This document shows positions 42,585 through 50,173 of a DNA stretch of 64,000 bases, in pieces. The notes below the pieces were generated by a model, which was given only the letters and a program-made list of their open reading frames with translations, made no database searches and had not been told where the DNA came from. Position numbers and translations under genes: made by a program. Each line of letters opens with the position of its first letter. Positions within the stretch are counted from its first letter, which is position 1. The stretch is from NCBI GenBank assembly GCA_946699065.1, contig CAMPDV010000517.1, positions 62,001 through 126,000 of the forward strand, in the 5' to 3' direction. The DNA comes from Loxodes magnus (lineage: Eukaryota; Ciliophora; Karyorelictea; Loxodida; Loxodidae).

Positions 42585-43596
42585 TCATTTATTTTAATTT
42601 ATGGATTTTTTACTCTGATTATTTTCTTCTTCTTCTTCTTTTATCTCTTCTTAATTTTTCTATTTTTCTTTCTTATTTTTTTTAATCTAATTTTATAGAA
42701 AAATATCTTACATTTTTTAAAATATCCCAGTCAAAAACAGAGTCAAACTAATAATTTTCTTAATAAAATAAATCTCTTAATATATTTTATAAATGTCCAT
42801 AGTCTGGCCTATCTTCAAATCGTAGACTTCTACAATAATTCATATAAATACTTAATTCTGGAGGCATATTTTAGCATAATATTTCTATTGGAGTTGACAT
42901 TTTATTTTCCATTATTTTTTCATATTTTTCTTTCTTTGTAATTGCTCTTAATCCTTACCAAGGAAGAGAACCTCTTAAAAAATAAATTAATATATGACCT
43001 AAAGCTTCAAGATCATCTCGTCTCGATTGTTCGATTCCTAAATGAGTATTGATGCTACAGTAGCGAGCATTTCCTGTTAAATTTTTATTTTCTTAATATG
43101 GAATATGCTTTTAAGTTTTAGGATCTCTGTATTTCTTAACAGTACCAAAATCAATCAAATATATTAAGTTTGAATTTTTTTTTAAGCCTATTAAGAAATT
43201 TTCGGGTTTAATATCTCTATGAATGAAATGTTTGGTATGAAGGAACTTCAATCTTTAAATAATCTGTTCAGCTATCATAATTACAGTTTTCAGAGTTAAT
43301 TTTCGATTTTTTAAATTGAACAAATCTTCTAATGTTGGCCCAAGTAGTTCCATTACCATAGCATTGTATTCCCCTTCTACTCCATATCAAAAAATATTTG
43401 AAATTCCTGTTCCACCTTATAAAATTCTATATATTTTTGACTCAAATAACAATTGAGGATGTTTACTTTTAACAGATTCAAGCTTAATAGCAACTTATTC
43501 ATTTGACTGAACATTTGTACCTAAATAAATCTCACCAAAAGATCCAGTCCCTATTTTTTTACCAAGTCTATATTTTCCTCCCACTCGCAGCTCCAT
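42585..43596 (-). CDS. Casein kinase 1 family protein kinase
   Basis: Complete Ser/Thr kinase, joined from 43596-42712 and 42686-42585 across a 25-nt intron; 328 residues. Key parts: [11 protein letters not shown] (glycine loop), VAIKLES (Lys), [20 protein letters not shown] then PTLEDLF, the catalytic [46 protein letters not shown] then DDLEALGH (the CK1 signature replacing APE), LPWQGLRA, and FEDRPDY. The kinase-conserved W in NIFWYG is TGA (43387-43389), strong proof that TGA is read as Trp. With the intron removed the tail becomes Lys/Glu/Gln-rich ([17 protein letters not shown]) and stops at TGA 42585-42587; without it the frame would run on with no natural end. CK1 enzymes act in many pathways; the target here is unknown. 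Confidence 0.93.
42687..42711 (-). other. 25-nt spliceosomal intron in the CK1 gene
   Basis: On the coding strand GTAAGA...AATTAG: a GT-AG segment of 25 bases with a consensus-like 5' site. Removing it joins DWDILKN to IKKNKKEKQ and brings a TGA stop into frame. Phase 0. Predicted from the protein only. Confidence 0.65.
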
Positions 43597-43797
43597 TCGA
43601 CTTAAATATATTAATAATTAAAATCGAATAAAATTAAACCAAAAGATATATTTATATAGATTGTTAAATTATTTTCTTTGCTTTATTAAATTTTTAATTT
43701 ACAAACATTAAAAATTAAATTGAAAAATATATAAAATAGAATAATTATTAAATGTCATTTTACAATTTATGTTTTATTATGTATCATTTTTTAAATA

Positions 43798-44145
43798 AGG
43801 TGGAAAGCCCTTTCCTTCGGATACTGCTTGGAAGCCCAGCAAGGCAACTAAAAAATGAGCGCGGACTGAGGATAAATCGGAGAAAGAGAAGCCGATAACA
43901 AGAGAAGGAAGATTTGACAAGCTGGAGAACTCTGAATACCAGGAGAAAACCTTCTTCATCATAGGTCGGGGAAAGATTTACCCGTAATCGCATATTGCAT
44001 CCTATGCTTTTGAAGTAAAAATTACAGGGACGTATTCAGGAAGAGAAAACAAGGATAGAGAGACCCATAAATTTTTTTTCGACATTAAATAAAATTAATT
44101 GTAAGAGCTGCGTACCAAAGAGAGTGCTACACACTCTATAATCCA
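43798..44145 (+). mobile_element. SINE-like element, family 1, copy b
   Basis: Second copy of the element at 9646. The head GGTGGAAAGCCCTTTCCTTC, the body (GAGAACTCTGAATACCAGGA) and the tail hairpin GAGCTGCGTACCAAAGAGAG (44105-44138) all match with scattered substitutions and few indels. It lies about 200 bases upstream of the CK1 start. The differences suggest an old insertion. Confidence 0.6.
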
Positions 44146-48460: not shown

Positions 48461-48465
48461 TATTC

Positions 48466-50173
48466 TCATTATACATCAATATTATAGTGGATCGCATTCT
48501 ATAAGTCATTTATATCGATAAAACCGTCTTTGTCCTCGTCTACTTCATCTAAAATCTCTTCTATTGTGTTTATATCTACTTATCCATCGAAAAAGCTACT
48601 TATATTTTCTCGATTTATTTTCCCAGTTTTATCAACATCTAGTTGCTGAAATAATATTTCTAAATTTTCTCTTGTAAGCACTTTTCATTTATTCATGCTC
48701 GCTGTTATAAACTCGTTTCATTCAATATAGCCTGATTTATCCGTGTCAATCTTGTTAAATATCTCTTCAATTATTTCTATAGAAATATTGAATTTTTAGT
48801 ATGCGTTTATAAATTCCTTTCTAGAAAGTCTTCCATCTCCATTTTAATCTATTTGCAGAAACTATTTCTTCAATACCTCTATTTCTTCTTATGGCTCTTT
48901 ATAAAATGCAAAATATTTCATAACTAATATTTGTATCTTTTTGCTCAATTAAAATTATCTTAAATTTTCAAACGAACTAAGCTCAATATTTTTTTAACTC
49001 TTATTTCTGAATCATTTATGTTTTAAGCATTCTTTTGCAGTTATTCTCATATTTATGTCCATGGTTATCATACTTTGAAGTAAGTCTTTACACTCGTTAG
49101 AGATTTATAATCAAACGTCTTAGTGCATTGAAAAATTATTTTTCTTTTTGAATCTATTTTATACATCTTATTTCTCGAAAGGAAATTCTCTACACAGCAA
49201 GAAATATAGTATCACACCACAGCTTCATATGTCACATTTTTAGTTGTAATTTCCACTTAAAACTTCAGGAGCTATGTATATTATTGTTCCTTATAAAGTT
49301 TGCATTCTTTTATTTTTTTGTCTTATGGCAGATGTTCCGAAATCTATTATCTTAAGGTTATTACATGGAGGAGGACTTTCAAACATAATATTTTCTGGTT
49401 TCAAGTCTCGGTGAACTATTCCTTTGGAATGACAGTAAGTTACTGCTGAAAGAATTTATTTCATTATATCTCTTGCTTCCAGCTCTGAAATTGATTTCTT
49501 TTTAATAGTGCGATCAAATAAATCTCCGCCTGTAAGATACTCTGTTACTAAATGGATTTTTTTATCATCTTCAAATATTTCATACAACTTTAACACATTA
49601 GGATGATCCTATATATTATTAACTTACTAGGCCTGCAAGAATTTTTTACTCGAGGAATTATTAATAGCAATTTTTAGTTTTATCGATTGATTTTATTGCT
49701 CTTTAATCATGAGTTTACACATTTTCAGCTAGTCAAACGTATCCATAAGAACCTTATCCAAGTTTTTTTATCATATTATAATTTTACTTTACATCACAAA
49801 AATTTCGTCTTATAAACATAGATGGGCTTATGTTAAGTTGTGCGATCTTTTCAGACGTAGACCAACCTTCTTAAATTTTGTTTAAAGGTGATCATTATAA
49901 GTTTTCAAACGAAATCGCACATGTTTTTTATTCATAATTGTATTTGCTTTCATTTTCTTTTTACCATTGATTTAGCTAATTTTCATCTTCATTATAAAGC
50001 ATATCAGAATGTTATGCTTGGATAGTAATTTAAGGTTGATTGATCTCCTGAGTTTTTTCTGATTCCTACTTTCTCATAATAGCATCAATCCTATCAATTT
50101 CACGTTCTTCTCCTTAAGAACATGTTGTACAAATAAGACCCATATTTTAGATTTTGTTCGAAATGCTTCCCAT
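48466..50173 (-). CDS. Calcium-dependent protein kinase (CDPK) with EF hands
   Basis: Complete CDPK with a 19-nt intron at 49609-49627. From the ATG at 50173 it reads [10 protein letters not shown]; a second ATG at 50143 gives [13 protein letters not shown], a better myristoylation/palmitoylation signal. The kinase domain has [88 protein letters not shown] and CLKHKWFRNK. A junction follows, then EF hands with loops [36 protein letters not shown] and [12 protein letters not shown]. It ends NAIHYNIDV with TAA-TGA at 48466-48471. Ca2+ binding to the EF hands would release the kinase. Conserved Trp residues in CDIW, HKWF and YIEW are TGA codons. Confidence 0.95.
49609..49627 (-). other. 19-nt intron in the CDPK gene
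   Basis: Coding strand GTAAGTTAATAATATATAG. Removing it joins KILAGL to [13 protein letters not shown], the exact kinase consensus; without removal the frame is lost. Predicted from the protein only. Confidence 0.8.

Follow-up and report, generated by a model that had tools for sequence, protein, structure and literature searches.

The nonstop code of Blastocrithidia is NCBI table 31. As is proposed for the DNA described here, UGA is read in Blastocrithidia as Trp by means of a tRNA-Trp(CCA) whose anticodon stem has four pairs (PMC13092985). However, UAR codes there for Glu and UAA is the stop, while TAA and TAG fall on Gln columns here. Table 28, the code of Condylostoma magnum, shares with the present case the double meaning of TGA (Trp and stop), TAA and TAG as Gln, and a nuclear genome in which no tRNA-Trp(UCA) was detected (PMC4967479). 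The four-pair anticodon stem is also common to both (PMC13092985). However, C. magnum terminates at UAA and UAG as well (PMC4967479), whereas the nine histone H4 matches found here all end at TGA.

For Loxodes magnus itself, PMC11441545 gives UGA as the only stop and NCBI table 27 as the code. Coding UGA is missing from about the last 20 codons of its genes, and UAA is depleted over approximately 20 codons ahead of the stops. Its introns have a mean length of 19.3 nt, most of them being of 16–25 nt, and 93% do not exceed 25 nt. A four-pair-stem tRNA-Trp of Loxodes is cited, second-hand, in PMC13092985 and PMC12005148.

The window, that is, the whole stretch of 64,000 nucleotides analysed, is with a probability of about 0.96 somatic DNA of the karyorelict Loxodes magnus that follows nuclear code NCBI 27; judged from the sequence, TAA and TAG would be Gln codons and TGA would be Trp inside genes and a stop at their ends. 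The TGA = Trp + stop code has already been published for L. magnus and is not a new finding; the result is an ordinary one because code 27 is known for this species (PMC11441545). The original prediction had pointed to karyorelict ciliates as precedent, and L. magnus does belong to that group. The interest of the locus lies in being a clean, independently recovered case of an ambiguous nuclear code, one that can be read from raw DNA by inspecting the alignment columns of a single large family of paralogues. Such a reading of paralogue columns is a useful check of codon assignments when transcripts are not at hand. The features of the window on which the analysis is based are the following:

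32139–33183, minus strand: MORN-repeat gene region (Pfam MORN, matched in two overlapping frames)
42585–42686, minus strand: CK1 exon 2, placed from the 25-nt intron, with stop TGA at 42585–42587
42687–42711, minus strand: probable CK1 intron of 25 nt, GTAAG...TTAG (GT..AG ends)
42712–43596, minus strand: CK1 (casein kinase 1) exon 1, ATG at 43596, 295 codons (translation, phmmer, Pfam Pkinase)
43387–43389, minus strand: in-frame TGA, CK1 codon 70 (NIFWYGVEG), Trp in structure alignments
48466–49608, minus strand: CDPK exon 2, encoding the kinase C-lobe and the EF-hands and ending with TGA 48466–48468 (translation, structures, Pfam)
48685–48687, minus strand: in-frame TGA, CDPK codon 490 (MNKWKVL), Gln in 1/4 and Lys in 3/4 alignments listed
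48718–48720, minus strand: in-frame TGA, CDPK codon 479 (YIEWNEF), Tyr in 4/4 alignments listed
49012–49014, minus strand: in-frame TGA, CDPK codon 381 (HKWF), Trp in 4/4 alignments listed
49111–49113, minus strand: in-frame TGA, CDPK codon 348 (DVWLQIS), Trp in 4/4 alignments listed
49225–49227, minus strand: in-frame TGA, CDPK codon 310 (CDIWSCG), Trp in 4/4 alignments listed
49609–49627, minus strand: probable CDPK intron of 19 nt, GTAAGTTAATAATATATAG (GT..AG), which restores the kinase reading frame
49628–50173, minus strand: CDPK (calcium-dependent protein kinase) exon 1, ATG at 50173 (translation)
49733–49735, minus strand: in-frame TGA, CDPK codon 147 (GSYGYVW), exon 1 (translation)
49892–49894, minus strand: in-frame TGA, CDPK codon 94, exon 1 (translation)

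In a phmmer comparison with known structures, the CK1 protein gave 46 matches, casein kinase I being found at an E value of 2e-146. Its exon 1 carries a single in-frame TGA, at codon 70, and this column is Trp in the three structure alignments listed of those 46 matches; the TGA is kept in 10/10 near-identical stretches of the same genome. The true frame of this exon contains one TGA and the other two contain 5 and 12, a count that is not unusually low with respect to base composition alone (P 0.07). TGA 42585–42587 had been proposed as the end of the CK1 frame, which holds only if the probable 25-nt intron is removed; without splicing, the frame continues to TGA 42463–42465. The GT and AG ends of this intron are kept in five further copies, as judged by eye. 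Four of them are near copies; the fifth, more distant and located on contig C533, has a tail that resembles the spliced frame.

The second exon of the CDPK gene matches CDPK structures with an E value of 4e-86 (604 matches). The CDPK frame shifts near codon 182, and removal of the 19-nt GT..AG segment renders an unbroken kinase, so that the frames were rightly described as unbroken for the spliced gene but not for the unspliced one. A one-base frameshift or a sequencing error near that codon was considered and discarded, the intron being the better fit. The lengths of the 19-nt CDPK and 25-nt CK1 introns suit those published for L. magnus (PMC11441545).

Seven in-frame TGA precede the CDPK stop (codons 94, 147, 310, 348, 381, 479 and 490), three of which had been named beforehand; codons 94, 147, 348 and 490 are added here. 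Columns were scored on four alignments listed of the 604 matches, three of which share one protein name; they cover exon 2, and codons 94 and 147, in exon 1, lie outside the aligned part. All three Trp columns of the best match, structure 3hzt, that align to exon 2 are TGA in this gene, and they take 3 of its 5 TGA. If five TGA were placed at random over 371 columns, the probability of this result would be about 1.2e-6, which is an approximate, post hoc figure. Codon 479 is compatible with an aromatic residue and is non-diagnostic; codon 490 is likewise non-diagnostic for the meaning of TGA. The true frame of exon 2 contains 5 TGA and the others 9 and 16. In exon 1 the numbers are 2, 2 and 13, and the CDPK count is not unusually low when compared with base composition alone (P 0.44). 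The four TGA triplets named in the original prediction are all present in frame on the minus strand; codon 70 of CK1 and codons 310 and 381 of CDPK are Trp across the families as proposed, but the YIEWNEF position is Tyr.

The MORN region is a third gene of the window with in-frame TGA, four of them being located in 32139–32711. In the three MORN1 structure alignments listed, the TGA at 32256–32258 falls on Trp and that at 32367–32369 on Tyr or Phe; the other two precede the aligned stretch. Points against TGA = Trp are 2/5 TGA of CDPK exon 2, one MORN TGA and 3/28 TGA of the CK1 paralogue stretch described below, which sit on non-Trp columns.

Paralogues of these kinases were sought in the complete assembly (705,730,643 bases, 7843 contigs), and 40 CK1 paralogues were picked by hand among 133 scored matches of the same genome. 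Column 70 is occupied by TGA in 25, TGG in 10, TAT (Tyr) in three, TTT (Phe) in one and TCT (Ser) in one, so that 35/40 paralogues carry TGA or TGG at the CK1 Trp column. Conversely, 25 of the 28 TGA present in the aligned CK1 stretch sit in this column; the remaining three are found on Phe (two) and Ser (one) columns. The Trp column of kinase subdomain IX behaves in a similar way: it contains TGG in 20 and TGA in 7 loci and no other codon (27/30 kinase loci, the other three lacking a motif match). From 5592 first-look candidates, 136 kinase matches were scored; they contain 157 in-frame TGA in total, and 91 of them have one or more. For CK1, in-frame TGA is present in 77 of the 80 matches that cover 263 residues or more (counted by eye). 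The structure alignments, the paralogues and the H4 ends described below thus agree with the predicted assignments of TGA (Trp and stop) and TAA/TAG (Gln).

The CK1 family is greatly expanded in this genome: from 1310 first-look candidates, 133 matches were scored, and 80 of these cover 263 or more of the 295 residues. Many CK1 matches are located on contigs C49 and C137, and part of the near-identical copies may correspond to haplotypes or to duplicated segments.

CK1 exon 1 contains 10 in-frame TAA or TAG triplets, and CDPK contains 34. In the 40 CK1 paralogues, column 60, a Gln in CK1, contains TAA/TAG in 32, CAA in one and other codons in seven, and column 48, also Gln, contains TAA/TAG in 24 and CAA/CAG in 16. 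A Glu meaning was rejected because TAA/TAG fall on Gln columns of these paralogues. A Gln-like tRNA pattern was detected in 267 places (33 in the control); ARAGORN, run on places sampled from 100 listed of the 267, identified two UUA-anticodon tRNAs and one tRNA-Gln(UUG). Following published work, the UUA-anticodon tRNAs would read TAA and TAG as Gln codons.

TGA is also a stop, since all nine histone H4 matches in the genome end with GFGG followed by TGA. In this one gene family, none of the nine ends at TAA or TAG. The distance from the last coding TGA to the stop is 259 codons in CK1 and 73 in CDPK, and neither of these two genes shows a coding TGA within about 20 codons of its stop, as described for L. 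magnus in PMC11441545. The assignments of TAA/TAG (Gln) and TGA (Trp/stop) and the very short introns also coincide with that report. However, TAA is present one codon ahead of the CDPK stop and three ahead of the CK1 stop, unlike the UAA depletion described for this species; no other difference from PMC11441545 was found. The base after TGA does not strictly separate coding from stop triplets, because T and G occur in both: it is A in nine, T in four, G in three and C in three of the 19 coding TGA of 27 kinase loci, and T in seven and G in two of the nine H4 stops (by eye). A is found only after coding TGA, in a small sample in which conserved residues constrain the coding contexts.

Three other readings of the in-frame TGA can be considered. 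In an organism with the Tetrahymena code (table 6), which uses TGA exclusively as a stop, these genes would be decayed copies and the triplets disabling mutations from TGG. A single transition converts TGG into TGA, and near-identical CK1 copies do exist elsewhere in the assembly. However, decay would have to account for in-frame TGA in nearly all long CK1 matches (77/80) and in two thirds of the kinase matches (91/136), as well as for its position on the Trp column in 25/40 CK1 paralogues, and this reading is hardly credible. Under code 6 TGA is never a sense codon, which the kinase loci and the CK1 paralogues contradict; the Tetrahymena code had correctly been judged unfit in the original prediction. 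UGA can also be read as selenocysteine in eukaryotes, and these sites might in principle have that meaning instead of Trp. This is the least credible of the three, to the point of being negligible: at CK1 column 70 of the 40 paralogues TGA swaps with TGG, Tyr, Phe and Ser codons but never with Cys, and 157 TGA in 136 kinase matches are far above selenoprotein numbers.

The Condylostoma type of code (table 28), in which all three stop codons are sense codons and all three also terminate, differs from code 27 in the ends of genes. The TAA triplets close to the CDPK and CK1 stops are in its favour, and a TAA stop in single genes is possible from DNA alone. However, the H4 matches, although they belong to one gene family, end at TGA in 9/9 cases and never at TAA or TAG, and UGA is named as the only stop of L. 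magnus in PMC11441545. Table 28 is therefore unlikely for these genes, with very little probability left to it, although somewhat more than to gene decay.

Regarding the decoding of TGA under code 27, a tRNA-Trp(UCA) gene had been suggested as a check of the original prediction. One pattern, describing a tRNA-Trp-like body that carries UCA as anticodon, found nothing in the genome, nor did its backward control, and a tRNA of other shape would escape this pattern; the genes that were found carry CCA instead, mostly with a four-pair anticodon stem. A pattern that admits either anticodon was matched 137 times (three times in the control); 100 of these matches were listed, and the remaining 37 may differ. 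The top pair of the anticodon stem, 27:43, is missing in 97 of these 100 tRNA-Trp(CCA) matches. They are distributed on three contigs: 48 on C67, with A.C at 27:43, 49 on C148, with U.C, and three on C110, in which all five pairs of the stem are present. In genes of both C67 (L035, L036) and C148 (L124, L130), ARAGORN identified a tRNA-Trp(CCA) whose anticodon stem has four pairs; the C110 copies (L034, L125, L126) have five anticodon-stem pairs, but also T-stem mismatches. The two main groups form tandem arrays:

C67, 482309–491189: tandem array of tRNA-Trp(CCA) with A.C at 27:43
C148, 155450–168712: tandem array of tRNA-Trp(CCA) with U.C at 27:43

These arrays bear on how ciliates without a UCA tRNA read UGA as Trp. 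Following PMC13092985, PMC4967479 and PMC11441545, a tRNA-Trp(CCA) with a four-pair stem would read UGA as a near-cognate codon, and termination by eRF1 at UGA would be restricted to the neighbourhood of the mRNA 3′ end or poly(A) tail. We tentatively propose, at slightly less than even odds, that most tRNA-Trp genes of L. magnus have lost the 27:43 pair in two separate tandem-amplified forms (A.C and U.C), so that UGG and UGA would be read by one and the same CCA population, and UGA would become a stop only through its position near the 3′ end; this two-form reading is based on 100 of the 137 pattern matches. The Loxodes literature on tRNA and UGA that was surveyed, outside the two main sources, mentions the stem only second-hand and does not describe the array structure of the two forms. 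It may be that the two types of array, and the scarcity of five-pair copies, are unpublished.

Two closely similar eRF1-like genes (L032 and L033), about 35 kb apart, are located on contig C196, according to translations read by eye. Both contain NIKS, which we take to be an eRF1 motif, and in both the first in-frame TGA is the one directly after DEDFL. The best eRF1_1 match (L031) was discarded as eRF1, its translation reading, by eye, like Pelota/Dom34.

In the tRNA search, which scored 63 out of 42786 first-look candidates, tRNA-Lys(UUU) genes on contigs C78, C103 and C158 are dominant, some of them being regularly spaced at about 1.75 kb or 0.5 kb. No RNA gene was detected in the 64-kb window by ARAGORN or by Rfam at gathering score.

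A GC-rich island beside CK1 (43795–44125) belongs to an interspersed repeat of high copy number, with 40 scored matches of 90–100% identity among 2360 first-look candidates. It was rejected as an RNA gene, its one Rfam match reaching 16.8 of 40 bits, far under the cut-off. The translation of 9647–9916 is similar to that of the island (by eye). Other GC-richer, coding-like stretches of the window are located at 54552–55730, 56990–57730, 58868–59308 and 60019–60837, with no Pfam family above cut-off in any of the four. Two of them, 54552–55730 and 60019–60837, may be repeats, since a similar peptide segment was noticed by eye in both, although encoded on opposite strands.
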